Assembly (NCBI RefSeq): GCF_035621355.1
Contig: NZ_CP141769.1
Location: forward strand, 2,356,001 to 2,420,000
DNA from: Thiobacillus sp. SCUT-2
GTDB taxonomy: Bacteria > Pseudomonadota > Gammaproteobacteria > Burkholderiales > Thiobacillaceae
DNA: 64,000 nt
Direction: 5' to 3'
Shown: positions 21,045 to 38,031 of the stretch, piece after piece
Layout: each line of letters starts with the position of its first letter
Position numbering within the stretch: the stretch's first letter is position 1
Notes under the pieces: model-generated
What the model saw: only the letters and a program-made list of their open reading frames with translations
What the model was told of the DNA's origin: nothing
Databases searched by the model: none
Made by a program: the position numbers and the translations under genes

Positions 21045-21737
21045 TCAGGCGCGCACGGACAGGTCGTCGAACAGCCCCGCCAGATCGGCGCCCAGCGCGG
21101 AGAGCGGGCGCGCACGCGTCGCGGTACGCCGCAGCACCTCGTCGCCGCACCCCTGGCTGCGAAACGCCTGCAGGACATAGCGCTTCACGCCGCGCGCGGC
21201 GAGCTCGCCGGCCAGCGCGGCGACGTCGGCATCGTCGAGCAGGGCAGGATGGATCGTCGTGCGGATCTCATGGTCAACGCGCGCGTCCAGCAGCAGCTGC
21301 AGCCCGGCCCCGGCGCGCTCGCCGCTGCCGGCATCGCCGGTGATGCGCGCATACCCGGCCAGCGGCGCCTTCACATCGAATCCGACCCAGTCGACCAGCG
21401 GCAGCACCGCCGCGAGCTTCTGCGGAATCATGCCGCCGGTATGCAGCCCGATCTTGAAGCCGAGCGCGCGCACCTCGCGCATCGCGTCCGGCAACGCCGG
21501 CTGCAGGGTCGGCTCGCCGCCGGAGAACACGACGCCGTCGAGCAGGCCGCGGCGGCGCTGCAGGAAGGCCATCACCTCGGCCCAGGGAATTTCCGATTCA
21601 CCGCGCGCGGGAATCAGGCCCGGGTTGTGACAGTAGCCGCAGCGCCAGGGGCAGCCCTGGCAGAACACGACCGCGGCCAGCATGCCGGGCCAGTCGGTGG
21701 TCGACAGCGGCGTCAGGCCGCCCACGCGAAGCGTCAT
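21045..21737 (-). CDS. nrdG: Anaerobic ribonucleotide reductase activase NrdG
   Basis: 230 residues, a radical SAM activase with cluster motif CPWRCGYC (preceded by another Cys, CQGC) and GGEPTLQP. The start at ATG 21737 (MTLRVGGLTPLSTTDWPG) fits the family; the longer frame does not. It generates the glycyl radical on the class III reductase under anaerobic conditions. It is third in nrdD, glycyl-radical ORF, nrdG, 50 bases after the small ORF. Confidence 0.94.
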   Translation of the reverse strand: MTLRVGGLTPLSTTDWPGMLAAVVFCQGCPWRCGYCHNPGLIPARGESEIPWAEVMAFLQRRRGLLDGVVFSGGEPTLQPALPDAMREVRALGFKIGLHTGGMIPQKLAAVLPLVDWVGFDVKAPLAGYARITGDAGSGERAGAGLQLLLDARVDHEIRTTIHPALLDDADVAALAGELAARGVKRYVLQAFRSQGCGDEVLRRTATRARPLSALGADLAGLFDDLSVRA

Positions 21738-21787
21738 GTTTGGCCGTGGCGAAGCGTCATGTTCAGTGCCGGCGCAGCAAGGCCGCG

Positions 21788-21976
21788 TCAGCCCATCCGG
21801 CACTGGCTTTCGACGAAGAAGCGGCGCTCGCGATGCTCGCTCTTCTTGCCCTTGTTGAAGCTGGCAACCGGGCGGTGGTAGCCCATCACGCGGGTCCAGA
21901 CTTCGCAACGGGTGCGCTCCTCGTCTTTCAGGGCAGAGGCGTCGAGGGCTTTGGCGATAACGGACAGGTCGGTCAT
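21788..21976 (-). CDS. nrdD: Separate glycyl-radical segment of class III ribonucleotide reductase
   Basis: 62 residues. The core is RTRCEVWTRVMGYHRPVASF followed by NKGKKSEHRERRFF. RVMGY matches the RVxGY glycyl-radical motif, which in one-piece NrdD lies at the extreme C-terminus. The neighbouring large NrdD stops just before such a domain would begin. An AAAGGAG ribosome site 8 bases before ATG 21976 shows it is translated in its own right, 16 bases after the large gene. It probably docks with the large subunit and carries the radical glycine. Confidence 0.88.
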   Translation of the reverse strand: MTDLSVIAKALDASALKDEERTRCEVWTRVMGYHRPVASFNKGKKSEHRERRFFVESQCRMG

Positions 21977-21992
21977 TTCAGTCTCCTTTCGG

Positions 21993-24008
21993 TCAGGCAA
22001 CAACGGCGGGTTTGCGCGACAGGGCCTCCTCGTCGCACTTGGGGCAGAACTCGTGCTCGCCGGCGAGATAGCCGTGCTTGGGGCAGATCGAGAACGTCGG
22101 CGTCACGGTGATGTACGGCAGGCGGAAGCGCTCGAGCGCGCGCCGCACCAGCTTCCTGCAGGCGTCGGTCGACGAGATGTGCTCGGACATATAGAGGTGC
22201 AGCACGGTGCCGCCCGTGTACTTGCGCTGCAGGTCATCCTGCCGCTCCAGCGCCTCGAAGGCGTCGTCGGTGTAGCCGACCGGCAGCTGGGTCGAGTTCG
22301 TGTAGTAGGGGGAATCTTCCGTGCCGGCCTGCAGGATTCCGGGGTAGCGCTTGGCATCCTCCTTGGCGAAGCGGTAGGTCGTGCCCTCCGCCGGCGTCGC
22401 CTCGAGGTTGTAGAGATGGCCGGTCTCCTCCTGGAAGCCGGCGATGCGCGCGCGGATGTGGTCGAGCAGGCGCAGCGCGAAGTCGTGCCCCCACTCGGTC
22501 GTGATGTCGTGCGCGTCGTCCGTGAAGTTGCGGATCATCTCGTTGACGCCGTTGACCCCGATCGTCGAGAAATGGTTGCGCAGCGTGCCGAGGTAGCGCT
22601 TGGTGTAGGGGAACAGGCCGCTATCCATCAGGCGCTGGATTTCCTTGCGCTTGATCTCGAGGCCGTTGCGCGCCATGTCGAGCAGCGCGTCGAGGCGGCG
22701 GATCAGCGCGGGCTCGTCGCCCGCGTATTCATGGCCGAGGCGCGCGCAGTTCACCGTCACCACGCCGACGCTGCCGGTCTGCTCGGCCGAGCCGAACAGG
22801 CCGTTGCCGCGCTTCAGGAGCTCGCGCAGGTCGAGCTGCAGGCGGCAGCACATGGAACGGATGTGGTTGGGCTTCATCTCCGAATTGATGAAGTTCTGGA
22901 AGTACGGCAGGCCGTAGCGCGCGGTCATGGCAAACAGGCGCTCGGCGTTTTCCGACTCCCAGGGGAAGTCCGGCGTCATGTTGTAGGTCGGGATCGGGAA
23001 GGTGAACACGCGGCCCTTGGCATCGCCGGTGGTCATCACCTCGATGTAGGCACGGTTGATCATGTCCATCTCGGCCTGAAGTTCGCCGTAGGCGAACGGC
23101 ATCTCCTCGCCGGCGATGACCGGCACCTGCTCGCGCAGGTCCTCCGGGCAGGTCCAGTCGAAGGTGAGGTTGGTGAACGGCGTCTGCGTGCCCCAGCGCG
23201 AGGGCACGTTGAGGTTGTAGATCAGTTCCTGGATGCACTGCTTCACCGCCTCGTAACTCATGCCATCCTTGCGGATGAAGGGCGCCATGTAGGTGTCGAA
23301 CGAGGAGAAGGCCTGCGCGCCGGCCCATTCGTTCTGCAGCGTGCCGAGGAAGTTGACGATCTGCCCGACGGCGGAAGACATGTGCTTCGGCGGGCCCGCC
23401 TCGACCTTGCCCGGCACGCCGTTCAGCCCCTCGTGCAGCAGGGTGCGCAGCGACCAGCCGGCACAGTAGCCGGCGAGCATGTCGAGGTCGTGGATGTGGA
23501 TCGAGCCGTCGCGGTGCGCCTCGCCGAGCTCGGGCGGATAGACGTGATTGAGCCAGTAGTTGGCCACCACCTTGCCGGAGACGTTGAGGATCAGGCCGCC
23601 CAGCGAGTAGCCCTGGTTCGCGTTGGCATTGACGCGCCAGTCCTGGCGGCTGAGATATTCGTTGATCGAGGCCTCGACGTCGACGACGGTCTTGCGGTCC
23701 TCGCGCAGCTTCTTGTGCGAGTCGCGATACGCGATATACGCACGCGCGGTCTGCAGGTGGTTCGCGGCGATCAGGCTCTGCTCGACCACGTCCTGGATGC
23801 GCTCGATGTCCGGCGCGGCGTTGCGGAAGCTGTGCGCCATCACCTTGATGACCTGCGCGGTCAGCAGATCGGCTTCGTCGGGGCCGAACTCGCCGGCCGC
23901 CTGGCCAGCGCGCAGGATGGCCGAGCGGATCTTGGCCGCGTCGAACGCCGTGCGACGGCCGTCGCGCTTGATGACTTCACGGGGAATCGCTGCTATCACT
24001 GAATTCAT
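21993..24008 (-). CDS. nrdD: Anaerobic ribonucleoside-triphosphate reductase, large part
   Basis: 671 residues. Residues 8-100 are an ATP-cone (IPREVIKRDGRRTAFDAAKI). The catalytic barrel includes QNEWAGAQAFSSFDTYMAPF, FTNLTFDWTCPEDL and IRSMCCRLQLDL. A zinc segment near the end reads ICPKHGYLAGEHEFCPKC. The chain ends EEALSRKPAVVA without a glycyl-radical motif, which is supplied by the next ORF. It reduces ribonucleotides to deoxyribonucleotides without oxygen. Confidence 0.95.
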   Translation of the reverse strand: MNSVIAAIPREVIKRDGRRTAFDAAKIRSAILRAGQAAGEFGPDEADLLTAQVIKVMAHSFRNAAPDIERIQDVVEQSLIAANHLQTARAYIAYRDSHKKLREDRKTVVDVEASINEYLSRQDWRVNANANQGYSLGGLILNVSGKVVANYWLNHVYPPELGEAHRDGSIHIHDLDMLAGYCAGWSLRTLLHEGLNGVPGKVEAGPPKHMSSAVGQIVNFLGTLQNEWAGAQAFSSFDTYMAPFIRKDGMSYEAVKQCIQELIYNLNVPSRWGTQTPFTNLTFDWTCPEDLREQVPVIAGEEMPFAYGELQAEMDMINRAYIEVMTTGDAKGRVFTFPIPTYNMTPDFPWESENAERLFAMTARYGLPYFQNFINSEMKPNHIRSMCCRLQLDLRELLKRGNGLFGSAEQTGSVGVVTVNCARLGHEYAGDEPALIRRLDALLDMARNGLEIKRKEIQRLMDSGLFPYTKRYLGTLRNHFSTIGVNGVNEMIRNFTDDAHDITTEWGHDFALRLLDHIRARIAGFQEETGHLYNLEATPAEGTTYRFAKEDAKRYPGILQAGTEDSPYYTNSTQLPVGYTDDAFEALERQDDLQRKYTGGTVLHLYMSEHISSTDACRKLVRRALERFRLPYITVTPTFSICPKHGYLAGEHEFCPKCDEEALSRKPAVVA

Positions 24009-24151: not shown

Positions 24152-24589
24152 ATGAGCACGATCCTGGATTTTCTCGGCAGCGACCACCGCGCCTGCGACG
24201 ACCTGTTCGCCTCCGCCGAAGCGGCGGCCGCGCAAAAGAACTGGGACAGCGCGCGCAAGCTGTTCGCAGAGTTCGACGCGGCGATGGCCCACCACCTCGC
24301 CATGGAGGAAACGGTCCTGTTCCCCGCCTTCGAGGCGCGCACCGGCATGAGCGCGGGGCCGACCCAGGTCATGCGCATGGAGCATGAGCAGATCCGCGGC
24401 CTGCTTCGCGACATGGCCGGCGCGGTCGCGGCAGCCGACCACCATGCCTACCTCGGGCTGTCGGAAACGCTCAACATGCTGATGCAGCAGCACAACCTCA
24501 AGGAAGAGAACATGCTCTACCCGATGTCCGACCAGGTGCTGGCGGTCGACCGCGACGGCCTGATCCGCTCGATGCAGGCGGTCGCGTGA
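24152..24589 (+). CDS. Hemerythrin-domain protein
   Basis: 145 residues forming one hemerythrin four-helix bundle: SDHRACDDLF, MAHHLAMEETVLFPAFE, MRMEHEQIRGLLRDM and QQHNLKEENMLYPM supply the His/Glu/Asp di-iron ligands. It is cytoplasmic and binds O2 or NO, or senses oxidative/nitrosative state. It is divergent from the anaerobic reductase operon and coupled by GTGA overlap to a DUF2249 gene. An AAAGGAG ribosome site precedes the start. Confidence 0.93.
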   Translation: MSTILDFLGSDHRACDDLFASAEAAAAQKNWDSARKLFAEFDAAMAHHLAMEETVLFPAFEARTGMSAGPTQVMRMEHEQIRGLLRDMAGAVAAADHHAYLGLSETLNMLMQQHNLKEENMLYPMSDQVLAVDRDGLIRSMQAVA

Positions 24590-24819
24590 GCGCAGTGCCC
24601 GACGAGGTCCTCGTCGACGCCCGCGGCCTCGAGCCGCCCGAGCCGCTGGAGAAGGTCATGCAGGCGCTCGCCCTGCTGCGCCCCGGGCAATCGATCCGCC
24701 TGCTGCTGCACCGCGAGCCGTTTCCGCTCTATGGCCTGCTGGCCGAGCGCGGCTTCCGTCACTCCGCCAAGATGGAGCAGGACGGCAGCTACGTGATTCT
24801 CATCCGGCCGGCGGCCTGA
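24586..24819 (+). CDS. DUF2249 protein (TusA-like fold), copy 1
   Basis: 77 residues starting at GTG 24586. The segment VDARGLEPPEPLEKVMQAL aligns by eye with the TusA sulfur-carrier motif DxRGLxCPxP, but the catalytic Cys position is Pro (PPEP). The chain ends SYVILIRPA like TusA-type proteins. It is therefore probably a binding or regulatory relative that cannot carry a persulfide at that site. It is coupled to the hemerythrin gene. Confidence 0.85.
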   Translation: MSAVPDEVLVDARGLEPPEPLEKVMQALALLRPGQSIRLLLHREPFPLYGLLAERGFRHSAKMEQDGSYVILIRPAA

Positions 24820-24832
24820 CGTCTCGCATCGC

Positions 24833-26107
24833 ATGCAGGCCGGGCTTTCCTTCGAGCAGGCACCCCCCCTTGCGCTGCCGCTCCGCTTCTTCCTCACGGC
24901 GCCGCTGTTCCTGCTCGCGGCCGGTGCGCTGATCGCGATGGCGCCGCAGGCGCTGGCGTCCCGCTGGACGCCCGAGGCGCTCGCCCTCACCCACGCCATT
25001 ACGCTCGGCGTGCTCGCGATGACGATGCTGGGTGCGCTGACGCAGATGCTGCCGGTCGTGGCGGGGGCGACGCTGCCCGCCGCGCGCGTCGTCGCACGCC
25101 TGGCCCACATCGCGCTGACGCTCGGCACGGCGGCGCTGCTCGCCGCGTTCCTCGGCGCGGGGCCGGCGGTGTTCGGTGTCGCCCTCGTGCTGCTCGGCAC
25201 CGCGTTCGCGATCTTCCTGGCGGCGGCGGCGCGCAGTCTCGCACGGGCCGTCACGAATGCGACGGTCAACGGCATGCGGCTCGCGGCGGCAAGCCTCGCC
25301 GCGACCATCGTGCTCGCCGGCGCGCTGGCACTGCCCCGGGCCGGCTGGGTGCCCGGCACGCCGGGCATGGCGACCGTCGGCGCGCATGCCACCTTCGGCC
25401 TCCTGGGCTGGGTCCTGCTGCTGGTGGTCGGCGTCGCCTACCAGGTGGTGCCGATGTTCCAGCTCACGCCGCCCTACGCGCCGCGCCTGAGCCGCTGGCT
25501 GGCACCCGGGCTGTTCGTCATGCTCGTCGTCCGCGCGGCGGCGCCCGTCTTGCCGGCGGCCGTGGCGGATGCCGCGGCCGTCGCCCTGGCCGGCGGCATC
25601 CTCCTGTTCGCGGGCGCGACGCTGCGCCTGCAGGCGCGTCGACGGCGGAAGATCGCCGACGTGACGCTCGATTACTGGCGCCTCGGCATGACCAGCCTGG
25701 TCGCCTGCGTGGGCGTCTGGCTCGCCGCATGGCTGGCGCCGGCGTGGCGCCACAGCGATGCCTATCCGCTGTTGCTGGGCGTGCTTTTTCTCGGCGGCTT
25801 CGCGCTGAGCGTGGTCAGCGGCATGCTCTACAAGATCGTTCCCTTCCTCGCCTGGTTCCACCTGCAGGCGCAGACGCAGGCGCGCGCGGGCAGCATCCCG
25901 ACGATGAAGGACATGATTGGCGAACGCTGGGCACGCTGGCAGTTCCGCGCCCACCTGGCGGCGTGCGCGCTGCTCGCGGGCGGCCTGGCCTGGCCCGCGC
26001 TGCTTCGTATGGGGGGAGTGCTGCTGATGCTGTCGGCGCTGCTGCTCGCGCTCAATCTGGCGTCCGCGGTGCGGCGGTTCGCCCGCCACGGCGGGCGCTT
26101 CCGCTGA
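24833..26107 (+). CDS. Polytopic membrane protein, NnrS/heme-copper-oxidase subunit I-like
   Basis: 424 residues, about 12 transmembrane helices. Conserved-looking intramembrane His residues occur in LTHAITLGVLAMTMLGALTQ, VGAHATFGLLGWVLLL and FLAWFHLQ, each near the pattern G-x2-x-P(V/M) (TQMLPVV, YQVVPMF, YKIVPFL) seen in heme-binding subunit I-like and NnrS-like proteins. It lies 13 bases after the DUF2249 gene, so it is co-transcribed with hemerythrin. A heme or NO-related role is inferred only. Confidence 0.7.
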   Translation: MQAGLSFEQAPPLALPLRFFLTAPLFLLAAGALIAMAPQALASRWTPEALALTHAITLGVLAMTMLGALTQMLPVVAGATLPAARVVARLAHIALTLGTAALLAAFLGAGPAVFGVALVLLGTAFAIFLAAAARSLARAVTNATVNGMRLAAASLAATIVLAGALALPRAGWVPGTPGMATVGAHATFGLLGWVLLLVVGVAYQVVPMFQLTPPYAPRLSRWLAPGLFVMLVVRAAAPVLPAAVADAAAVALAGGILLFAGATLRLQARRRRKIADVTLDYWRLGMTSLVACVGVWLAAWLAPAWRHSDAYPLLLGVLFLGGFALSVVSGMLYKIVPFLAWFHLQAQTQARAGSIPTMKDMIGERWARWQFRAHLAACALLAGGLAWPALLRMGGVLLMLSALLLALNLASAVRRFARHGGRFR

Positions 26108-26126
26108 GGCCGCCGCGGCGGCGGCC
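26108..26126. terminator. Hairpin between convergent genes
   Basis: GGCCGCCGCGGCGGCGGCC forms a 7-base GC stem with a 5-base loop in the 27 bases separating two convergent genes. It has no T-run, so its use as a bidirectional terminator is only likely. Confidence 0.45.
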
Positions 26127-26134
26127 GGCTTGGG

Positions 26135-26461
26135 TCAGCCCGTGCTCCAGGCGCGCGGACGCTTCATCCCTGCAATCTTGCAGGCCTGCTTGACGTAGCC
26201 GTACGCGAACAGGCGGAACAGCGCATTGCGCGCATCGGAGCCGAGCCGATCCGACAGGTGCTTGATCACATAGCGCGCATCCGGCGCGATCTGGTGCTCC
26301 TCGTAGAAGGCCCGCATGAAGCGGATCACGTCCCAGTGGTCGTCGGTGAGGCTGACGTTCTCCGTGCGCGCGAGGCGTTCGGCGACGTTCTCGTTCCATT
26401 CGTTGGGCTCGATGAGGTACCCTTCCTCGTCGAGTGTCGGCATCGTGACTTCTGCATCCAT
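26135..26461 (-). CDS. DsrC/TusE-like protein retaining only the inner cysteine
   Basis: 108 residues matching the DsrC/TusE family: DEEGYLIEPNEWNENVAERLA, LTDDHWDVIRFMRAFYEEHQ, FAYGYVKQACKIAGMKRP. DsrC proper ends in a flexible arm with two Cys, one in QACKIAG and one at the penultimate position. Here the inner Cys is kept, but the tail reads PRAWSTG, with no terminal Cys. It cannot form the DsrC intramolecular disulfide and may be a regulatory relative. The start at 26461 has a GAGGAG site. Confidence 0.88.
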   Translation of the reverse strand: MDAEVTMPTLDEEGYLIEPNEWNENVAERLARTENVSLTDDHWDVIRFMRAFYEEHQIAPDARYVIKHLSDRLGSDARNALFRLFAYGYVKQACKIAGMKRPRAWSTG

Positions 26462-26550
26462 GGTTCAAGCTCCTCATTCAAGCCCGGCGCGCCGCGCCAG
26501 GTACGTCAAGAAAACTGCAAGATCGAAATAATCCGATTCGCTGTTCACGC

Positions 26551-27120
26551 TCACGAGAGCACCGGAAGCAGCCCGAGCATGACCAGCACGACCCAAGCGA
26601 CGAGTCCAAGCGCCGTTACCACGTAGGCGATGTCGAGGGCGATGAGGGGCTCGTTGACATCGAGGACGAACTGCACGCCCCGGAAGATGAGCAAGACCGA
26701 TGCCGCCAGGCCGAACACGAGGCCGGCCACGATCGCCAGCGGATTCGGGATGAAGAGCACGAGCGCGGACAGCCACAGGGGAATGGGCGCCACGGTGGCG
26801 AGCGTGAAGGCGTCATGCTCGTCGGCGGCGACGCCCTTGGAGAGGGCGATCGAACGGATCGCCCACGCCATCAGCGGAACCGTGGCCAGTTCGGCCAGCA
26901 GGAAGAACAGTGCGGCCGTATTCCATGCCTGAATTTCCACGCTGGGGAGCAGCGTGGCGCCCAGGTGACGTCCTGCGTATTCGAGCATCAAGGGCGGAAT
27001 CAGCGAGAATGGCGCGGCGAACATGGCGAAACGCCGGAACCGCGAGGCGCGCCGACCCGCCAGCGCGTCCCAGCCCTCGGAGGACGAGGTAAACAAGGTA
27101 TGAAACGGCAGAATGTTCAT
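26551..27120 (-). CDS. Yip1-family membrane protein
   Basis: 189 residues with five or so transmembrane helices and Yip1/DUF1282 features (FHTLFTSSSEGWDALAGRR, then AWAIRSIALSKGVAADEHDAF). ATG 27120 is preferred over 27135 because AAGGAG lies about 7 bases before it. Bacterial Yip1 proteins have no settled function. It is upstream of the DsrC-like gene on the same strand (89-base gap) and divergent from marR, sharing the palindromic region at 27213-27231. Confidence 0.8.
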   Translation of the reverse strand: MNILPFHTLFTSSSEGWDALAGRRASRFRRFAMFAAPFSLIPPLMLEYAGRHLGATLLPSVEIQAWNTAALFFLLAELATVPLMAWAIRSIALSKGVAADEHDAFTLATVAPIPLWLSALVLFIPNPLAIVAGLVFGLAASVLLIFRGVQFVLDVNEPLIALDIAYVVTALGLVAWVVLVMLGLLPVLS

Positions 27121-27212
27121 GTGCATCTCCTTCACCGAGACACGCGACCGCCCGACTCGAGGGCTGGTCGCGCAACCAGCGGATCGGCGCGCCGCACCGG
27201 TCCCGAGTCGTT

Positions 27213-27235
27213 TATATCATGTTGTGATATATAAT
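27213..27235. promoter_or_regulatory. Palindromic operator overlapping the marR -10 box
   Basis: TATATCA-TGTTG-TGATATA is a perfect 7-base inverted repeat with a 5-base centre, typical of MarR-family operators. A TATAAT -10 for the marR gene (27230-27235) overlaps its right arm. It lies between the divergent marR and Yip1 genes, so a MarR dimer here could control both; that is inferred. Confidence 0.65.
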
Positions 27236-27261
27236 CCACTTCACCCGCCGAGTCAAGAACA

Positions 27262-27684
27262 ATGCCGTCAGCCCGCCTGAACAAGAAGGAATTCGAAACC
27301 CTCTCCGACTTCCGCTACCAGTTGCGCCGCTTCCTGCGCTTCAGCGAGGAGGCGGCGCACCGGCACGGAATCACCCATCTTCAATACCAGCTGCTGCTGC
27401 ACACCCGCGGCTTTCCGGGACGCGAGTGGGCGACGGTGGGCGAGCTCGCCGAACGGCTGCAGGCCCACCACCATGGCGTCGTCTCGCTGATCTCGCGCTG
27501 CGAAAAGCTCGGCCTGGTGCGACGGGAGGTCGGGCGCTCCGACCGGCGCGCGGTGGAGGTGCATCTGACTCCCTCCGGCAATCGCATGCTGAACCTGCTT
27601 GCCGCGCTGCACCGCGACGAACTGCTGCGCCTGCAGGGCATCTTCCGCGTGCCGGGCGCGGCGGATCTCGACGCCGGCACCTGA
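27262..27684 (+). CDS. MarR-family transcriptional regulator
   Basis: 140 residues with a winged helix: HLQYQLLLHTRG, ATVGELAERLQAHHHGVVSLI (recognition region), LVRREVGRSDRRAVEVHLTPSG (wing). MarR proteins are dimeric, usually autorepressing sensors. It starts 27 bases after the TATAAT overlapped by a palindrome and precedes a DUF2249/NnrS-like/FmdE-like operon it may regulate. Its ligand cannot be predicted. Confidence 0.92.
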   Translation: MPSARLNKKEFETLSDFRYQLRRFLRFSEEAAHRHGITHLQYQLLLHTRGFPGREWATVGELAERLQAHHHGVVSLISRCEKLGLVRREVGRSDRRAVEVHLTPSGNRMLNLLAALHRDELLRLQGIFRVPGAADLDAGT

Positions 27685-27752
27685 GCCTGTGCGGCGCCGA
27701 TCGGCGCTGCGATGGCCGCAGAAAAAATCCGCACGAACGAAAATTTCTCGCC

Positions 27753-27758
27753 TATAAT
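27753..27758 (+). promoter_or_regulatory. TATAAT -10 element upstream of DUF2249 copy 2
   Basis: A perfect TATAAT lies 33 bases before the start codon of the 84-residue DUF2249 gene, with no recognisable -35, suggesting activator dependence. The adjoining ATGCATT resembles half of an NsrR-type site, but no matching second half is present. Confidence 0.5.
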
Positions 27759-27791
27759 ATGCATTCCATTTACTTCTTTTGGACGACAGCC

Positions 27792-28046
27792 ATGAATGCT
27801 CACCTTCATCTCCGCCAGGACCAGGTCTACCCGTTCGACGCGCGCGGCATCGCCAAGCGCTTTCGCCATGCCGCGATCTTCGGCGCGCTCGACGCGCTGA
27901 CCGGCGGCGAACGCATGCGCTTCGTCAACGACCACGACCCCCTGCCCCTGCTCGACCAGTTGCGCAACCGCTACGGCGAGGCCGTGACGATCCAGTATCT
28001 CGCGCGCAACCCCGGGGAGATCGTGATCGACTTCATCCGCAACTGA
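27792..28046 (+). CDS. DUF2249 protein, copy 2
   Basis: 84 residues. VYPFDARGIAKRFRHAAIF aligns with the TusA-like DxRG start of DUF2249, again without the sulfur-carrying Cys; the chain contains no Cys at all. The region RMRFVNDHDPLPLLDQLRNR matches the family core. ATG 27792 is used since it lies just after a promoter-like TATAAT and begins the family region. It is followed 9 bases later by an NnrS-like gene, repeating the DUF2249-membrane protein pairing at 24.6 kb. Confidence 0.85.
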   Translation: MNAHLHLRQDQVYPFDARGIAKRFRHAAIFGALDALTGGERMRFVNDHDPLPLLDQLRNRYGEAVTIQYLARNPGEIVIDFIRN

Positions 28047-28055
28047 GCACCTGCC

Positions 28056-29183
28056 ATGCTTCCGGCGCAGGTGTTCCTGGCCCTGGTCGCGTTCGTCGCG
28101 GCCTTGCTGGGAGCCCTGGATGCCGGCCGCGCGGCCACGCTGCACCTGATCCTGGCCGTCGGCGCCATGCCGCTGATCTTCGGCGCGATGGGCCATTTCA
28201 TCCCGGTTCTGACGCGCACGCACGGCGCCCCTGCGGTCCCCGCCGCCCTGGCGGGACTCGCACTCGCGGGCGGCGCGCTGGCGGTGTCGTCCTTCGCCGT
28301 GCCCGCACTGGGCACGGCCCGCTACGTGGGCGCCGGCCTGGCCGCGTCGGCCGCGGCACTCCTGCTGGCCTGGACCCGGCGCCGCCGTCGCGGGATGCTG
28401 GGCCGGCCGCACCCCGGCCTGGCCTGGTACGAGGCCGCGCTTGCGTGCCTCTTCGTCGCCCTGCTGGCGATTCTGGCGGGCGCGATCTGGCCGCAGCACG
28501 CCGTCGCGCTGCGCCGCCTCCATCTCCATCTCAACACGCTCGGCTTCATCGGGCTCACCGCCTGGGGCACGCTCGCGGTGCTGCTGCCGACCGCCGCCGG
28601 CAAGCCGGACCCGGACGCCGCGGCCCGCCTGCGCCGCGATCTGCCGTGGGCAGTCGCCGGGATCGCCCTCGTCGCCACGGGCGCGGCCTGGCTGGCGCCG
28701 CTCGCGGCCGTCGGCGCGGCGGTGCTGGCGCTTCCGCTGGCCCGCACCGCCACCGCCTGGCTCCGGCGCTATCGCGTCGAGCTGTTCGCATGGCACGGCG
28801 CGTCGCCGCTGCTCGGCGCCGCATTCGCCGGCTATGCGATCAGCCTGGCGCTCGGCGCCGCTGCCGCGGTCCGGCCGTCGCTGACACCGACATCCGCCTT
28901 CGTGCTCGCCTTTCTGCTGCCGCTGGTGTCCGGCGCGGCCAGCCATCTGCTGCCGGTATGGCTGCGCCCGGGGCGGCAGGGCGACTGGCACGCCGCGTTG
29001 CGTAGCCGGCTCGGACGCTTCGCCGGCGCGCGCGCACTTCTCTTCTGCGGCAGCGGCATGGCCGCCGGCCTGGGACAGGGGTGGGGGCTGCCGCTCGGCG
29101 GCGCCGTGATGCTGTGGTTCCTGTTGCAGGCGGCGGCAGCCGTCGTCCGCGCCAAGGTGTTCGAGAAGGAGGTTTCCGCATGA
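28056..29183 (+). CDS. Polytopic membrane protein, NnrS/heme-copper-like
   Basis: 375 residues, about 10-12 helices. His-bearing helices include TLHLILAVGAMPLIFGAMGH, LHLHLNTLGFIGLTAWGTLA and GAASHLLPVWL, recalling NnrS and subunit I-like heme proteins. It is distinct in sequence from the protein at 24833 but of the same general type. Its stop overlaps the next gene (ATGA). A role in NO response or metal/heme handling is an inference from family appearance and neighbours. Confidence 0.7.
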   Translation: MLPAQVFLALVAFVAALLGALDAGRAATLHLILAVGAMPLIFGAMGHFIPVLTRTHGAPAVPAALAGLALAGGALAVSSFAVPALGTARYVGAGLAASAAALLLAWTRRRRRGMLGRPHPGLAWYEAALACLFVALLAILAGAIWPQHAVALRRLHLHLNTLGFIGLTAWGTLAVLLPTAAGKPDPDAAARLRRDLPWAVAGIALVATGAAWLAPLAAVGAAVLALPLARTATAWLRRYRVELFAWHGASPLLGAAFAGYAISLALGAAAAVRPSLTPTSAFVLAFLLPLVSGAASHLLPVWLRPGRQGDWHAALRSRLGRFAGARALLFCGSGMAAGLGQGWGLPLGGAVMLWFLLQAAAAVVRAKVFEKEVSA

Positions 29184-29806
29184 CTTACCCGGCGTTTTAC
29201 GATGCCGCGCCGCGCATCGTCCTGTACGACCCGCTTGCCGAACTCCTGGGCGCCGCCGCGGGAGGACGGATCGAGTACCGCTACGTCGACGCGGTCAAGC
29301 TCGCCGGCCACTCCTGCCCCACCGTGGCGGGCGCCTACCTGATGACGCGCAAGGCGCTGGCCCGGCTCTACCCGGACGACTTGCCCCTGCGGGGCGGCAT
29401 CCGTGTCGAATTCGGCGCGACACAGGCGGACGGCGTCACCGGCGTCATCGCAGCGGTCGCCGGCCTGCTGACCGGCGCGGCCGGCGACGGCGGCTTCAAG
29501 GGAATCGGCGGCCGCTTCAGCCGCCGCAACCTGCTGGCGTTCGGGCTTGGCGGCGACACGTCCCTCCGCTTCACCCGCCTCGACAGCGGCGCGCGCGTCG
29601 AGGTCGCCTACCACCCCGAAATCGTGCCGGTGCCGGCGGGGCTGCAGACCCTGCTGCCCGGCGTGCTCGCGGGCTCCGCAAGCGCGGCCGAACGCGCCGA
29701 CTTCGCACGGATCTGGCAGGCACGCGTCGAGCGCATCCTCATCGAGCACGGCGACGACCCGGCGCTGGTGACGTGCGGCGACGATGCCTCGCCGGCCGCG
29801 CCTTAG
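29180..29806 (+). CDS. FmdE-like domain protein
   Basis: 208 residues. The motif VKLAGHSCPTVAGAYLMTRK matches the FmdE (formylmethanofuran dehydrogenase subunit E-like) domain, where the His/Cys help bind metal. No methanogenesis genes are present, and FmdE domains also occur alone in bacteria with unknown roles. A second Cys lies only at the C-terminus (VTCGDD). It is coupled to the NnrS-like gene by ATGA overlap and overlaps the convergent tetR by 4 bases. Confidence 0.78.
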   Translation: MTYPAFYDAAPRIVLYDPLAELLGAAAGGRIEYRYVDAVKLAGHSCPTVAGAYLMTRKALARLYPDDLPLRGGIRVEFGATQADGVTGVIAAVAGLLTGAAGDGGFKGIGGRFSRRNLLAFGLGGDTSLRFTRLDSGARVEVAYHPEIVPVPAGLQTLLPGVLAGSASAAERADFARIWQARVERILIEHGDDPALVTCGDDASPAAP

Positions 29807-30435
29807 CTTCTCGGCGCCCAGCCCGAGATCAGGGCCGAGATGACGGCATCGGCCTGCTCCGCCAGCACGAAGCGCTGATCCGAGAGCACCCAGCGGAAGG
29901 CGAGTCCCTGGACGGCCGCGATCAGGATGCAGGCGTTTTGCTGGGGAACGACGTCTGCGCGGATCTCGCCCTGCGCCTGCGCGGCCGCGATGAGGTCGGC
30001 GATGAACTGCAGGAAATACTGCACGAGCGCATTCATGCGGTCACGGAAGACCGGGTCGCCGCTTTGCAGTTCTTCGGAAAAAAGCAGGCGCGGAATGCCC
30101 GGCTGCTGCTGGATGAAATTCAGATGCGCGCGGATGACGGCCTTCAGCCGCTCCAGCGGGCCCAGCCGCTCGAGGCCCAGGCCGGCCATTTCCCGCTGCA
30201 GCCGCGCCTGGATGGTGTCCACCAGCGCGACCAGGACGTGGCTCTTGTTGCCGAAGTGCAGGAACAGGGTCGGCTGGGCAATGCCGACCGCCTGCGAAAG
30301 CGAACGCGTCGTGAGCCTGGCCACGCCCTCATGGCGAATGATGTCCATGGCCGCCTCGATGATGTCATGGCGGCGGACTTCCGCGGACTTTCTTTTTTTT
30401 ACGGCCACAATGCGTCCATCCAGGGCAAACGGCAT
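29803..30435 (-). CDS. TetR-family transcriptional regulator
   Basis: About 210 residues with an N-terminal helix-turn-helix (ARLTTRSLSQAVGIAQPTLF then LHFGNKSHVLVALV) and a helical ligand domain. The start is uncertain: ATG 30435 lacks a ribosome site, while a GTG about 10 codons later has GGATGG before it. It is last in a minus-strand run cytochrome c'-like, FadL-like, DUF2892, TetR, and probably controls that run. Confidence 0.88.
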   Translation of the reverse strand: MPFALDGRIVAVKKRKSAEVRRHDIIEAAMDIIRHEGVARLTTRSLSQAVGIAQPTLFLHFGNKSHVLVALVDTIQARLQREMAGLGLERLGPLERLKAVIRAHLNFIQQQPGIPRLLFSEELQSGDPVFRDRMNALVQYFLQFIADLIAAAQAQGEIRADVVPQQNACILIAAVQGLAFRWVLSDQRFVLAEQADAVISALISGWAPRS

Positions 30436-30545
30436 GAAAAACAACCGGGTGCATGCGGCTGTCGAGCGTCGCCGAAGGCACCCGGAAGCGGAAAGCGGCG
30501 GCAGCAGCGAGGGCCGCTGCCGAAAGGTACACCGTCAGGCCGTTT

Positions 30546-30752
30546 TCAGGAACAGCAGCTGCCTTCCCTGAGGCCCGCCTTTTTCAGCATGAACGCCAGC
30601 GGGCAGAAGCCGGTCACGCCGCTTTGCGCGAGGTTGGCGCCGACGAAGGCGGTCAGCCACAGCCATGCGGGGTTGCTGCCGAAATGGGCAAGGGCAAGGC
30701 TTGCGAGCACTACCAGGCCTGCCACGAGATGTACGGTACGGTCTACGGTCAT
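30546..30752 (-). CDS. DUF2892 small membrane protein
   Basis: 68 residues with two transmembrane helices, beginning MTVDRTVHLVAGLVVLASLA and ending with GFCPLAFMLKKAGLREGSCC. The DUF2892 family often accompanies rhodanese-like domains; no such domain is attached here. The GxCP motif and terminal Cys pair could be redox or thiol sites. It lies 60 bases after the FadL-like gene and has a GGAG site. Confidence 0.88.
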   Translation of the reverse strand: MTVDRTVHLVAGLVVLASLALAHFGSNPAWLWLTAFVGANLAQSGVTGFCPLAFMLKKAGLREGSCCS

Positions 30753-30812
30753 GTGAATCTCCTTTTGTCGACGTCAGGGTTCAAGGGCAGCCGGCCCGCG
30801 CCGGCCACCCGC

Positions 30813-31979
30813 TCAGAACTGGTAGGAAACGTTGAAGTTGTACTGGTTCTGGTGGATCTCGATCTTGTTGTAGGGCGCGACGCTCGACGTCAGCTCATTG
30901 CTGAAGGCGTGCGTGTAGGCGAAGGTGCCGCTGACCTTGTCGCTGAACTTGCGCGTCAGGCCGACCGACAGGTGGTTCTCGACGATCGCGGTGGAGCCGA
31001 GGTTCATGTTGACGCTTTCGGCGCCGAACGGCGATTTGCCGTAGTTGTAGCCGACGCTCACCGCCATCTTGTTGCCCAGGTCCTTCTTCACGCCGAGCGC
31101 GTACACCGTCTGATCCTTCCAGCCGAAGTTGAGCGTGGCCGGGAAGCCCGGGGGCGGGTTCGTCACGGGAATGCGCTTCATCACGTCGGCGAATGCATAG
31201 CGCTTGACGTCGAATTCGACCTGCAGGCCCGGCATCGGCTTGAACGACAGGCCAAGCGCGAGCGAGGCCGGCATGTCCATGTCGAAGCTGGTGCGGCCGC
31301 TGGGCGTGTTGTATTCCATCCGGGCGACGTCGGTCTTCGTCGTGTACACCAGGCCGGCCTGCCATCTGGGAGAGATCTTGTAGGTGGCGCCAACGGTCGC
31401 ACCCAGGCCGAACTGCTGGTTCTGCGGCAGCGCGACGTAATTGCCGCCGCCGCCCGGCAGCGACATCGCCAGGCTCTGGTTGACGAGATTGAGCGACGCG
31501 CCCAGCGTCAGCGCGTCGGTGACCTTGAAGGCAGCGGCCGGGGTGAAGCGCAGCACCTGCTTGGTCGTCACTACCGGCTGGTTCCCCGCCGCCGCCATGG
31601 CGTCCGCCACGTTCACGCCCATGCCGGCGATGCCCCCCATGCCCATGCCGAGGAACAGGCGGTCGTTGACGTTGAACGCGACGGCACCGCTCGGCATCAT
31701 GTACCAGTTCGAATCGCTTTCCTGGCCGTTGACCTCGCGCGGCGGGTTCAGGAGCCCGAAGCCCAGATCCATCCGCACCTCCTTCATGCCGAGATCCGCG
31801 ATGCCGGCCGGATTGACCATCACCGCCAGCGCGTCCCGGGCCTGCGCGACGGTGGCGCCGCCCATCGCAGCCTGGGCCGCCGACAGCGCCATCATCTGAT
31901 CGCCGTTGGTGGCATGTGCCGTGACAGGTAAAGAGCAGGCGGCCGCCGATGCGGCCGCAACGAATGTCCGCTTATTCAT
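30813..31979 (-). CDS. OmpP1/FadL-family outer-membrane transporter
   Basis: 388 residues with a signal peptide ending TAHATNG, giving the ATNG-like mature start of FadL proteins, then AAMGGATVAQARDALAVMVN with the NPAG motif typical of the N-terminal hatch, and a beta-barrel ending in Phe (NVSYQF). It passes hydrophobic substrates through the outer membrane. Clustering with a TetR regulator suggests a substrate-induced operon. GAGGAG precedes the start. Confidence 0.9.
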   Translation of the reverse strand: MNKRTFVAAASAAACSLPVTAHATNGDQMMALSAAQAAMGGATVAQARDALAVMVNPAGIADLGMKEVRMDLGFGLLNPPREVNGQESDSNWYMMPSGAVAFNVNDRLFLGMGMGGIAGMGVNVADAMAAAGNQPVVTTKQVLRFTPAAAFKVTDALTLGASLNLVNQSLAMSLPGGGGNYVALPQNQQFGLGATVGATYKISPRWQAGLVYTTKTDVARMEYNTPSGRTSFDMDMPASLALGLSFKPMPGLQVEFDVKRYAFADVMKRIPVTNPPPGFPATLNFGWKDQTVYALGVKKDLGNKMAVSVGYNYGKSPFGAESVNMNLGSTAIVENHLSVGLTRKFSDKVSGTFAYTHAFSNELTSSVAPYNKIEIHQNQYNFNVSYQF

Positions 31980-32003
31980 GTTCTGGTCTCCTCGAAAGGG
32001 GTA

Positions 32004-32600
32004 TCACTTCGAAACGGGGGACAGCAGGTTGGCCGAGATGCCGGGCGTGCCGCGGAATTTCTGATGGCAGGCGACGCATCCGGTCATGATGTCGCTCATG
32101 TGGGACGCCGCTCGCGGCAGATCGCCCGCATCCGCCGCGTCGGCCAGCTTGAGCGCGCTGCCCTCGACGATCTGGTTCATCGCCGGCAACACCGCCAGGT
32201 CGGCATCGTTGATCTTGTCCAGCGGGAAGTAGGGCAGCAGCCCGCCCTTGGGAATGCGATGGTTGGCCAGGCGGCGGGCCGCTTCGGACGCCTGCTCCGC
32301 GTTGTCGGTCGCCAATGCCGCCGCGACGGCCTGGTAGTCCGACAGGATCTCCTGCATGACCTGCCGCAGGGTCGTCTCCTTGGCCCGCCGCGTATGACCC
32401 GCGTGCAGCTTCTGGATGGTGCCCTTCAGCTGCGGCGACAACGCCATCACCTTCTGCCGCAGCTCGGGCGTGTAGGTCTTCATCATCTGCTGCATTTCGG
32501 CCGGCATCGGGGCCGCGCCCTGGGGCGGTTCGGCCAGGGCAGCACTCGCGGACGCGAGGCCGCCGGTCAGGATCAGGGAAGTCATCAGCGCTTTCTTCAT
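32004..32600 (-). CDS. Cytochrome c'-like periplasmic protein
   Basis: 198 residues. A signal peptide ends ASAALAEPP (start ATG 32600 with GGAG site). A single heme site, CVACHQKFRG, lies near the C-terminus, the position typical of cytochrome c' four-helix bundles. Cytochromes c' bind NO and CO. It heads the run with FadL-like, DUF2892 and TetR genes. Heme attachment is strongly supported; NO binding is a family inference. Confidence 0.8.
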   Translation of the reverse strand: MKKALMTSLILTGGLASASAALAEPPQGAAPMPAEMQQMMKTYTPELRQKVMALSPQLKGTIQKLHAGHTRRAKETTLRQVMQEILSDYQAVAAALATDNAEQASEAARRLANHRIPKGGLLPYFPLDKINDADLAVLPAMNQIVEGSALKLADAADAGDLPRAASHMSDIMTGCVACHQKFRGTPGISANLLSPVSK

Positions 32601-32633
32601 GGGAATCTCCGCAGGAAATCTCGACAGGAAAAT

Positions 32634-32657
32634 ACATATGATCATTTGCTCATATGT
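32634..32657. promoter_or_regulatory. Palindrome upstream of cytochrome c'-like operon
   Basis: ACATATGA and TCATATGT form a perfect 8-base inverted repeat separated by 8 bases, 34 bases before the start of the cytochrome c'-like gene. A related half (TTATATGT) follows at 32666. It is a candidate operator for the TetR regulator encoded at the end of the same run. Confidence 0.55.
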
Positions 32658-32924
32658 TCGCTTGATTATATGTGGAGGCCGATTTTATGCAAGCAGATCG
32701 TGAAGTCCTGATTCAGGAGCCGTTCCACGGCTGCCGCAACGCGAGCCGGTGCCATCCACGCGGCGTGCGGATACAATCCTGCTGTTCAAGCAATGAATCA
32801 CCCGCCAGGCGGGATGCGGGGATCAATCCTGCGTGCCATGCGTGCCCGCCCCCGGAACGCACCGGCGCGCGGCATTGGACGCCCTTCATGGGCAGCCCCG
32901 TCGACGGAAACCAGAGGACCAGTA
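32658..32924. other. Intergenic region upstream of NMO-family gene
   Basis: The space between the divergent cytochrome c'-like and flavoprotein genes. It holds an AT-rich segment next to the palindrome, then GC-rich sequence with a possible TACAAT -10 (32772-32777) for the flavoprotein gene. No gene or riboswitch was seen. Confidence 0.5.
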
Positions 32925-35214: not shown

Positions 35215-35667
35215 CTACGCGGCCATCATGCGCTGCACGGCCTGCGCGAGCGGCCGCGGCAGCCTGCCCAGCACCGCTTCGGGTTCGAGCGCGTCAAGCA
35301 GGTTCTTCACGACCAGCCCGAGCTCGGTATCACCCTCGCTCACCAGGCGGCGGCTGAAGAACAGCGTATCGGGATCCTCGCGGCGCGCGAGCAGCCGCAG
35401 GAAATCGCCCGCCGTCGCGCTGACCGTGAGCTCGGGCGCGCCGGCATGCGGCGCGAAGCCGCGCGCCGTGACCGTGAAGCGCACGCCGAGCCCGAGATCC
35501 TTGACACGGATCGCATAGCGCCGCCCCACCAGCGGCTGCCAGTCGAGCGCCTGCAAGGCGGGCCACAAGAGGCGGTTGGCGGCGACGCAGAACGCCAGGC
35601 TGGGCGGCGTCACCGGCAGCCTGGCGACCACGGCGGCAACGGAAGTCGGTACGGCGAGCTTCAACAT
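35215..35667 (-). CDS. ubiT: UbiT, SCP2-domain factor for O2-independent ubiquinone synthesis
   Basis: 150 residues with an SCP2 lipid-binding domain (NRLLWPALQALDWQPLVGRR, FTVTARGFAPHAG, LFFSRRLVSEGDTELGLVVK). UbiT (YhbT) is needed with UbiU and UbiV to make ubiquinone without oxygen and probably binds prenylated intermediates. The start at ATG 35667 has GAGGAG. It is the last gene of the ubiU-ubiV-queD-ubiT group, 13 bases after queD. Confidence 0.9.
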   Translation of the reverse strand: MLKLAVPTSVAAVVARLPVTPPSLAFCVAANRLLWPALQALDWQPLVGRRYAIRVKDLGLGVRFTVTARGFAPHAGAPELTVSATAGDFLRLLARREDPDTLFFSRRLVSEGDTELGLVVKNLLDALEPEAVLGRLPRPLAQAVQRMMAA

Positions 35668-35680
35668 GGCGATCTCCTCA

Positions 35681-36127
35681 TCAGGACGGCCGCAGCGCGT
35701 CGGCCCAGTTGTTCGGCGTCTCGTAGAGGCGCACCCGCTCCAGCCGCAACTGGTTGCCATAGGTGTCGCGGTAGGCTCCGTCGAGCAGCCGGAAGGCCTC
35801 GGCCGCCAGGTTCTCGGCCGTGGGAACGCAGGGCAGCACCACGGTCTTGTGACCCGGCAGCGTCGCAAGAAAGTCGAGCACGGCGCGATCGCCCTGGTAG
35901 GCGAGAAAGGCGTGGTCCCACGGCTCGACCACCATCCGGTTGGCGATGCGCTTGACCTCCGAAAAGTCCATGACCATGCCCTCTTCCGCCGCCCCCTCGG
36001 TGCGGATGATCGCGCCCGACAGCGTGATCTCGATCGCATAGCGGTGGCCGTGGAGATGGCGGCACTGGCTCGCATGGCTGGGAATGCGGTGGCCGGCGTC
36101 GAACTCGAGCCTGCGCGTGATCAGCAT
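35681..36127 (-). CDS. queD: 6-carboxy-tetrahydropterin synthase family protein QueD
   Basis: 148 residues. The catalytic Cys and zinc His are in CRHLHGHRY; other landmarks are MVMDFSEVKRIANRMVVEPW DH-containing segment and PTAENLAAEAFRLL. QueD makes 6-carboxy-tetrahydropterin on the path to queuosine. The other queuosine genes, queE and queC, lie about 17 kb away. Here queD starts 1 base after the ubiV stop, embedded between two ubiquinone genes, an unexpected pairing. Confidence 0.93.
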   Translation of the reverse strand: MLITRRLEFDAGHRIPSHASQCRHLHGHRYAIEITLSGAIIRTEGAAEEGMVMDFSEVKRIANRMVVEPWDHAFLAYQGDRAVLDFLATLPGHKTVVLPCVPTAENLAAEAFRLLDGAYRDTYGNQLRLERVRLYETPNNWADALRPS

Positions 36128-36128
36128 C

Positions 36129-37022
36129 TCAGTCCTGTTCCACCGCGACGTGGTCGAGGCCCGCGCGGCCGTGCCAGTAGCCGTCGACCGCCGGGCCGGG
36201 CATGAAGCGCGCGAGCGAACCCGCCGCCCCTGCGTCGCCGTCGAGCGCCGCGCGGAAGGCCTCGACCACGCGTTCCATGTGGCGCGATTGCGGCGACAGG
36301 CGCAGGCTCGCCACCCCGAGTTCGCGCAGCGCCGGCAACTCGCCGATCAGGCTGTAGACGCCGGCCGACTGCGTCTGGATGCCGTTCAGCGTGAGGAAGG
36401 GCTCGCCCTCCCGCGTCGTCAGCGGCAGCCCGTCGGGATGGTCGAGGCAACGGAACTGGCAGTCGTCCTTTGGCAGGTTGTAGTGGCGCGCGGTGAAGCA
36501 GCGCGCGGAATACGCCAGCGGCAGGCGGCCGTAGGCGAACACCTCGGTTTCGACGCCGGCCGGTGCATGCGCCAGCAGCGTCGCGAGCGCGGTGCGCGAC
36601 ATCTCCACCGGCGGCAGCCAGCGTTCGGCGCCGAGCCCGGCGAGCACGTCGAGCGTCTCGTGGTTGTACACGTTGAGCGTGGGGCCGGCGACGAAGCGTG
36701 TGCCCGCCTCCGACAGCAGGCGCACCGCGCCCCATTCGTTGGCCTCGACGCGGAAGCGGCCGTCGCCGACGATGCGGCGCAGCGTCTTCAGGTCGGACTC
36801 CGACTCGATCAGCGTCTGGCTCGACAGCACCACCTCCTTGCCGGCGCGGTCGAGCTGCTCGGCGAGCGCCAGCCAGTCCTGCAGGCGCAGCAGGTGGCGC
36901 CGCGAACAGACGCTCTCGCCCAGGTGCACGCGCGCCACCGGCCAGCCTGCGGCGGCGTCGTAGAAGCGCTGCACGTCGTCGCGCGACCAGTAGTACAGCA
37001 GGGGGCCGAGGCTCAGGTTCAT
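36129..37022 (-). CDS. ubiV: UbiV, U32-family protein of O2-independent ubiquinone synthesis
   Basis: 297 residues of the U32 peptidase-like family. Four Cys suitable for a 4Fe-4S cluster are visible: one in SVCSRRHLL near residue 40 and three in a C-x12-C-x3-C arrangement near residues 180-197 (CFTARHYNLPKDDCQFRC). UbiV forms a complex with UbiU that hydroxylates ubiquinone precursors without O2. It lies 7 bases after ubiU. Confidence 0.94.
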   Translation of the reverse strand: MNLSLGPLLYYWSRDDVQRFYDAAAGWPVARVHLGESVCSRRHLLRLQDWLALAEQLDRAGKEVVLSSQTLIESESDLKTLRRIVGDGRFRVEANEWGAVRLLSEAGTRFVAGPTLNVYNHETLDVLAGLGAERWLPPVEMSRTALATLLAHAPAGVETEVFAYGRLPLAYSARCFTARHYNLPKDDCQFRCLDHPDGLPLTTREGEPFLTLNGIQTQSAGVYSLIGELPALRELGVASLRLSPQSRHMERVVEAFRAALDGDAGAAGSLARFMPGPAVDGYWHGRAGLDHVAVEQD

Positions 37023-37029
37023 GGCGTCC

Positions 37030-38031
37030 TCACTTCCAGGGCCGATGATAGGCGCCGAGCGTGTGCGTCTGTCCTTCCGACAGCTTGCCGAGCTCGGCCT
37101 GCCAGGCTGGCGTCGGGCGGAAGCCTTCCGGATTCCGTTTCGCCGCGTCGATGGCGGCGCGCCACACCTTCGTCACCTGCGTCACGTAGGCCGGGCTGCG
37201 CTGGCGTCCCTCGATCTTGATCGCGGAGATACCCATCTTCAGCATCTCCGGCAGCAGGTCGAGGGTGTTGAGGCTGGTCGGCTCCTCGATCGCGTAGTAG
37301 GTCTCGCCGCCGACCGCGAAGCGGCCCTTGCACAGCGTCGGATAGCCGGCCTTCTCGTCGCGGCCGTAGCGGTCGAGCAGCACGCCGTTCAGCCGCGACT
37401 CGAGGCCGTCCGGCGTCTCCTTCCACTGCACCGCCTTCGCCGGCGAGCACACGCCCGCCGAATTCGGCGACTCGCCGGTGCAGTACGACGACAGCAGGCA
37501 GCGTCCCTCGACCATCACGCACAGGCCGCCGAAGCCGAACAGCTCGATCTCGACGTCGGTGTGCTTCACCACGTTCTCCACCTGCGGCAGCGACAGCACG
37601 CGCGGCAGCACCGCGCGCTGGATGCCGAAGTGCTCGCGGTAGAAGTTCACCGCCTCGTAGCTCGTCGCCGAGCCCTGGACGGAGAGATGCAGGCGCAGCT
37701 GCGGATGGTGCTTCACCGCGTAGCGCATGAGACCCGCGTCGGCGAGGATCACCGCGTCCATGCCGAGCTTCGCCGCGCGGTCGATCGCGCCGGTCCAGCG
37801 GGTCCAGGTGTCGGGCTGCGGATAGGTGTTGAGCGCGAGTAGCACGCGGCGGCCGCGGTCGTGCGCGTAGCGCAGCCCTTCGGCCGCCTGGGCCTCGTCG
37901 AAGTTGAGGCCGGGGAAGGCCCGCGCGTTGGTGTTGTCGCGGAAGCCCATGTAGACGGCGTCGGCGCCGTGGTCGATCGCGGCCTTCAGCGACACCAGGC
38001 TGCCCGCCGGGCACACCAGATCAAGCGGCAT
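37030..38031 (-). CDS. ubiU: UbiU, U32-family protein of O2-independent ubiquinone synthesis
   Basis: 333 residues. The U32 start MPLDLVCPAGSLVSLKAAID and the four cluster Cys are present: GLCVMVEGRC, GVCSP and TLCKGRF. It is the partner of UbiV in anaerobic ring hydroxylation. Its start overlaps the stop of the upstream radical SAM gene by 11 bases, so the genes are translated from one message. Confidence 0.95.
   Translation of the reverse strand: MPLDLVCPAGSLVSLKAAIDHGADAVYMGFRDNTNARAFPGLNFDEAQAAEGLRYAHDRGRRVLLALNTYPQPDTWTRWTGAIDRAAKLGMDAVILADAGLMRYAVKHHPQLRLHLSVQGSATSYEAVNFYREHFGIQRAVLPRVLSLPQVENVVKHTDVEIELFGFGGLCVMVEGRCLLSSYCTGESPNSAGVCSPAKAVQWKETPDGLESRLNGVLLDRYGRDEKAGYPTLCKGRFAVGGETYYAIEEPTSLNTLDLLPEMLKMGISAIKIEGRQRSPAYVTQVTKVWRAAIDAAKRNPEGFRPTPAWQAELGKLSEGQTHTLGAYHRPWK

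Follow-up and report, generated by a model that had tools for sequence, protein, structure and literature searches.

Two gene modules pairing a cysteine-less DUF2249 protein with a membrane protein of predicted heme-copper oxidase fold in Thiobacillus sp. SCUT-2

We analysed a stretch of 64,000 nucleotides of Thiobacillus sp. SCUT-2 (NZ_CP141769.1, positions 2,356,001 to 2,420,000; below called the window), taken from a genome of 3.01 Mb on one contig (C1). Within the window, 8.4 kb hold every gene named in a preliminary description of the DNA, namely hemerythrin, DUF2249, 12TM, Yip1, DsrC-like, MarR, FmdE-like, cytochrome c'-like, FadL, DUF2892 and TetR genes (Table 1). By their neighbourhoods these genes form four units: module A, module B, a DsrC-like/Yip1/MarR group and a TetR/DUF2892/FadL/cytochrome c' group. 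Three assignments (FmdE, Yip1 and, narrowly, cytochrome c') stay under the Pfam cut-off. Since the module B gene scores 14.8 bits against the curated PF02663 cut-off of 22.9, we term it FmdE-like only. Upstream lie the anaerobic ribonucleotide reductase genes nrdDG (21045-24008) and downstream U32-peptidase and SCP2 genes (35215-38031), which are probably the oxygen-independent ubiquinone genes ubiUVT. The stretch between nrdDG and the probable ubiUVT is part of a cluster of anaerobic genes. Imperfect inverted repeats (32634-32673), possibly the site of a regulator, lie upstream of the cytochrome c'-like gene.

Table 1. Genes and sites of the locus, in window coordinates.
Feature	Unit	Position	Strand	Evidence
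Hemerythrin HHE protein	Module A	24152..24589	+	PF01814 82 bits
DUF2249a, Cys-less, TusA-like fold	Module A	24586..24819	+	PF10006 63.8 bits, TusA 36.6 bits
TM1, predicted 12-helix heme-copper-oxidase-fold protein	Module A	24833..26107	+	AlphaFold2 model, VIA, alignment n=46
DsrC-like protein without penultimate Cys	MarR regulon	26135..26461	-	PF04358 112 bits (112.4)
Yip1-like membrane protein	MarR regulon	26551..27135	-	PF04893 24.6 bits, cut-off 28.6
Likely MarR operator, TATATCA-N5-TGATATA		27213..27231	.	Perfect 7-bp inverted repeat
MarR regulator		27262..27684	+	PF12802 49 bits
DUF2249b, Cys-less	Module B	27792..28046	+	PF10006 91 bits
TM2, predicted 12-helix heme-copper-oxidase-fold protein	Module B	28056..29183	+	AlphaFold2 model, VIA, alignments
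FmdE-like protein with GHSCP motif	Module B	29180..29806	+	PF02663 14.8 bits, cut-off 22.9
TetR regulator	Separate cassette	29803..30444	-	TetR_N 38.7 bits
YgaP-like/DUF2892 membrane protein	Separate cassette	30546..30752	-	PF11127 54 bits
FadL-type outer membrane protein	Separate cassette	30813..31979	-	PF03349 66 bits
Cytochrome c'-like protein with C-terminal CxxCH	Separate cassette	32004..32645	-	PF01322 25.1 bits, cut-off 26.5

The pairing of DUF2249 with a polytopic membrane protein, previously noted as occurring twice, is real, but the genome contains it three times. The third unit has the order FeS_assembly_P-DUF2249-TM3-hemerythrin and lies about 6 kb past the end of the window (genome 2426275-2428428; L004:8276-10429); TM3 has the size of a 12-helix protein and the hemerythrin gene is downstream. 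Neither DUF2249a nor DUF2249b contains a single cysteine, in agreement with the preliminary description. At the position of the TusA CPxP cysteine the module A protein reads PPEP, and PPxP is found across 34 of 34 homologs; with this Cys absent from the window protein and the 34 homologs, DUF2249a does not qualify as a TusA sulfur carrier. The module A hemerythrin shows partial likeness to the Fe-S repair proteins RIC/YtfE (35.6 bits, where the cut-off is 204.7).

No Pfam or NCBIfam family matches TM1 or TM2 above its cut-off. AlphaFold2 models (mean pLDDT 95.3 for TM1 with an alignment of n=46, and 87.1 for TM2 with n=17) contain 12 long helices each. Comparison by Foldseek and VIA-align gives, for TM1, a Z score of 35.2 against CcoN over 394 residues at 3.0 Å and of 32.5 against NorB; for TM2 the values are 31.3 (358 residues, 3.0 Å) and 28.6. 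The heme-copper oxidase/NO reductase (HCO/NOR) fold is predicted with confidence for nearly the entire chain of both proteins. Local profile comparisons agree with this in part. Neither protein matches the NnrS model PF05940 at E values up to 1 or the COX1 model PF00115, but several local profile scores exceed the reversed controls, which scored 12 to 20: TM3-NnrS 52, TM1-NnrS 45, TM1-TM2 42.5, TM1-HCO 42 and TM2-NnrS 36. Not clearly above control are TM2-HCO, TM1-TM3, TM2-TM3, TM3-HCO and NnrS-HCO, where the HCO profile is a weak probe because its four sequences all come from this one genome. By profile, none of the three membrane proteins comes as close to NnrS as TM3. That TM1 or TM2 could be a true NnrS was rejected, as the Pfam NnrS model has its only match in the genome elsewhere.

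The catalytic set of HCO/NOR enzymes comprises six His. The membrane proteins do bear His, as had been described, and the invariant ones are present in both predicted proteins. The alignment of TM1 (n=46) leaves just two invariant His, H54 in helix 2 and H185 in helix 6. These two would be enough for one heme and form a putative cofactor site; TM1 as a catalytic oxidase was rejected because the set of heme and metal His is incomplete. Aligned with HCO, TM1 has H185 at the position of the first His in the HFH heme motif; aligned with TM2, its H54 matches H30 and its H185 matches H156. TM2 has more such residues: His 30, 47, 119, 156, 158 and 312 are invariant or nearly so in the alignments. Pei, Li, Kinch and Grishin reportedly described heme-copper-oxidase homology (HCOH) families in 2014, and most 12-helix HCOH proteins are said to carry two His. 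The few conserved His of TM1 (two) and the somewhat larger number in TM2 (H30, H119, H156, H158 and H312) agree with such families, and as modelled the membrane proteins of modules A and B belong to this NnrS-like class.

Neighbourhoods were surveyed in 40 genome regions and 80 named loci. The order hemerythrin-DUF2249-TM1 is kept far beyond Thiobacillus, the genus that supplies the nearest named relatives of TM1. Hemerythrin stands next to TM1 in 79 of the 80 loci, and DUF2249a is matched in 72 of them by tblastn (a few more by HMM). Both are stable partners of TM1, and the linkage of module A in other genomes, on which the earlier proposal depended, is borne out. Module B consists of DUF2249-TM2, often with the FmdE-like gene, which adjoins TM2 in many Thiobacillus loci; it is found near module A in some loci only. 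Among 100 relatives, homologs of TM1 occur in 56, of TM2 in 35 and of TM3 in 9, and no plasmid homologs of TM1 or TM2 were found.

The two remaining groups vary in presence and shift in position among loci, and the TetR cassette does so irrespective of modules A and B. The yip1-like gene adjoins the DsrC-like and MarR genes in several Thiobacillus. The operator pattern TATATCA-N5-TGATATA, derived from the window (itself one of the 29 loci, some of which, L178 and L289, are overlapping copies), precedes 26 of the 29 marR homologs with at most three mismatches, the next best sites in these loci usually having four or five. Among the loci scanned, it matches only before marR/yip1/dsrC. The most likely targets of MarR are its own gene and dsrC/yip1, and not modules A and B. 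A single system spanning 24.1-32.6 kb was rejected because in other genomes the cassettes separate and occur independently of one another, and because the MarR operator does not reach beyond its own genes in the loci scanned. The MarR/Yip1/DsrC and TetR/FadL/cytochrome c' groups adjoin modules A and B as units of their own.

The DsrC-like protein is one of 8 DsrC homologs in the genome. It belongs to the DsrC fold family (PF04358 as in Table 1, TIGR03342 104.9 bits, both above the curated cut-offs), and its C-terminal arm reads KQACKIAGMKRPRAWSTG. This arm, nearly invariant within the order, occurs both in the window copy and in the one encoded immediately before nnrS: the upstream Cys (QAC) is kept and the chain ends in RPRAWSTG. 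Alignments with paralogs and homologs show the penultimate Cys to be absent, which places the protein outside the DsrC/TusE sulfur carriers. The suggestion that sulfur-carrier relatives at this locus have lost key cysteines is thereby upheld for both the DsrC-like protein and DUF2249a with its PPxP. DsrC homologs that lack CysA go by the name RspA.

A DsrC-like gene is present in 24 of 31 NnrS loci, or 23 of 30 if the duplicate of the genome's own NnrS locus is left out (L106 = L250). In most Thiobacillus a CysA-less DsrC-like gene is situated directly upstream of nnrS, near narG (L111-L138; in the own genome at about 1341218-1342753). Beyond the NnrS loci the DsrC-like gene is usually found beside a MarR gene of the window type and only sometimes near NnrS. 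We further observe that the pairing of a DsrC-like gene with a divergent MarR gene, with a palindrome shared between them, is conserved across many genera of the order (L283-L322), mostly away from NnrS and from modules A and B. A literature search yielded no paper joining DsrC with NnrS. One might speculate that the CysB-only DsrC-like protein (KQACKIAGMKRPRAWSTG), under MarR together with Yip1 at TATATCA-N5-TGATATA, is a regulatory partner of NnrS or related oxidase-fold proteins that links sulfur/thiol status to NO handling in sulfur-oxidising denitrifiers; we consider this unlikely.

The relation to NO and denitrification that was proposed beforehand is strong in other genera, both in nir, nor and nnrS neighbours and in DNR/FNR boxes. 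HMM searches reaching about 10 kb from module A find NirS (>400 bits) in 13 and NnrS in 9 of the 80 loci. An oxidase/NOR-type gene is located about 2.7-3.2 kb from module A in 8 of the 80. One of these, checked in PDB, is NorB (759 bits to NorB of P. aeruginosa), and three more look NorB-like by their first residues and NCBIfam. In five loci (L196, L206, L208, L217 and L299) module A has a gene for a Crp/Fnr-type regulator as its neighbour; the one compared in PDB is closest to DNR. By whole-genome coordinates, eight relatives have TM1 no more than about 15 kb from nirS, and two have it at such a distance from nirK. Co-occurrence points the same way: nirS or nirK is present in 14 of 15 genomes with TM1 against 6 of 25 without (p ~4e-5). 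These 40 genomes were sampled at the level of the order with one per family, which lessens the effect of shared descent without removing it.

Upstream of hemerythrin, a DNR/FNR-type box (TTGAT-N4-ATCAA, at most one mismatch, within 160 bp) is present in 27 of 57 non-Thiobacillus loci, often at 55-75 bp; 200 shuffles gave 0.62 on average and never more than 3. Through its nirS/norB/nnrS neighbours, these boxes and the nirS/nirK co-occurrence, TM1 shares the denitrification context of the HCOH families; for TM2 this context was read from loci found with TM1. None of the 21 Thiobacillus loci has the box before module A. A DNR/FNR box for the window copies was rejected, none being present at one mismatch near modules A or B.

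The genome of strain SCUT-2 itself contains narG, with a true NnrS nearby, and no nirS was found in it. A nirK-like gene (C1:446535-447368) is divergent, scoring 193 bits against a cut-off of 296. A divergent nirK-like gene is also seen in several Thiobacillus relatives without nirS and in some with nirS. There are four COX1-family genes, one of which, by its length, may be a quinol NOR.

What might modules A and B do? We give about even odds (roughly 0.5) to the reading that they protect the cell from, or buffer, the NO of anaerobic nitrate/nitrite respiration by means of a heme in the membrane protein, the hemerythrin and DUF2249 as an adaptor. NO would arise during this respiration and would be taken up, as such or as nitrosyl-iron, at a heme held by two His of the membrane protein and, in module A, also at the di-iron site of the hemerythrin. 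The cytoplasmic, Cys-less DUF2249 protein would act as adaptor between the soluble and the membrane parts. To this common scheme module A would add the di-iron hemerythrin and module B the FmdE-like protein. Heme binding, NO as the ligand, buffering without catalytic turnover and the adaptor role of DUF2249 are what we would expect from the predicted fold, the invariant His, the conserved triplet, the linkage to nir, nor and nnrS and the DNR/FNR-type boxes elsewhere, and the co-occurrence with nitrite reductases. Several observations argue against a role in NO handling. Modules A and B are placed among anaerobic ribonucleotide reductase and probable ubiquinone genes, not among denitrification genes; neither the window nor the 21 Thiobacillus loci have a DNR/FNR box; the own genome has narG but lacks nirS and carries only a divergent nirK-like gene; and the direct profile similarity of TM2 to HCO does not rise above control.

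Linkage to nir and nor genes also speaks for modules that, rather than protecting the cell by binding NO themselves, act as assembly or repair factors: they would load or mend the heme, copper or iron centres in reductases of nitrite and NO, or repair damaged Fe-S or di-iron proteins. The partial RIC/YtfE likeness of the hemerythrin and the neighbours FmdE-like (module B) and FeS_assembly_P (the third unit, module C) suggest the same. However, the RIC likeness is far under its cut-off and there is no single target enzyme, the linkage being to nirS in some genomes and to nirK in others. We regard this explanation as unlikely. It might also be argued that one of the membrane proteins, TM1 or TM2, reduces NO or O2 as a divergent enzyme, turning over with electrons from quinol or cytochromes, given the fold they have in common with NorB and CcoN and the several conserved His of TM2, including an HxH (156, 158) reminiscent of oxidase heme ligands. 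Two invariant His in TM1 against six in HCO/NOR, and the missing COX1 Pfam match, make such an enzyme distinctly unlikely.

A sensory function is improbable in our view: DUF2249 and the membrane protein would sense nitrate, nitrite or O2 and relay the signal, as proposed for DrpA/DUF2249 proteins. Excerpts of PMC6282519 and PMC11218638 do present Thermus DrpA/DrpB, with their DUF2249 domains, as proposed nitrate sensors, but no output domain, kinase or regulator is constant in the modules. Very improbable is the original idea that DUF2249, the DsrC-like protein, the membrane proteins and cytochrome c' make up one NO/sulfur-responsive redox system. Its genes are adjacent in several Thiobacillus, and the same DsrC subfamily lies directly upstream of nnrS in most NnrS loci (24/31) and near NnrS in L299, L303, L307 and L314. 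Nonetheless, the cassettes are apart in other genomes, the operator is present only at marR/yip1/dsrC, and both carriers (DsrC-like and DUF2249) miss the sulfur-binding Cys.

Denitrification releases NO and N2O, yet next to the genes for nitrite and NO reductases there are several conserved accessory genes that still await a tested role. The hemerythrin-DUF2249-oxidase-fold triplet holds together as a unit and in many genera carries DNR/FNR-type sites, so that its function can be tested directly. The preliminary description had presented the whole locus as one undescribed system, and this is not supported: the cassettes assort independently, and an excerpt of PMC11218638, referring to Pei et al. 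2014, already associates DUF2249 with hemerythrins and the heme-copper oxidase superfamily, so the class of the TM1 and TM2 modules is already known. What is new here is a better documented context for a member of a known, denitrification-associated DUF2249/oxidase-fold class. Our literature search found no paper joining DUF2249 with NnrS.

Among DUF2249 proteins of known context, excerpts of PMC6282519 tie those of Thermus to nitrate respiration; DrpA and DrpB, with DUF2249 domains, are linked to it and proposed as nitrate sensors (also in excerpts of PMC11218638). Like modules A and B, DrpA/DrpB and the haloarchaeal proteins have DUF2249 and are expressed or placed with genes of nitrate respiration or denitrification; in contrast to the modules, these excerpts describe no membrane partner or hemerythrin for them. 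The DsrC-like protein shares with DsrC/TusE the PF04358 fold and with DsrC the C-terminal arm with its upstream Cys, whereas the penultimate Cys is lost; TusE is the reverse, having kept only the penultimate Cys (PMC3397948). In DsrC of A. vinosum it is the penultimate Cys that binds sulfur, and its conservation is described as strict (PMC3397948), so that a conserved DsrC subfamily departs from the published statement that this Cys is always kept.

NorB and CcoN resemble TM1 and TM2 in predicted fold over nearly the whole chain; TM1 differs in having two invariant His and not the full set of heme and copper ligands, and in the lack of a COX1 Pfam match. With NnrS (PF05940) the two proteins share profile scores of 45 and 36, above the reversed controls, and the NO/denitrification context, but they have no Pfam match, and the separate true NnrS of the genome is at C1:1341218 (403.6 bits). 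At the level of the class, TM1 and TM2 have in common with the HCOH families the predicted 12-helix heme-copper oxidase fold, the few conserved His, the denitrification context and the association with DUF2249.
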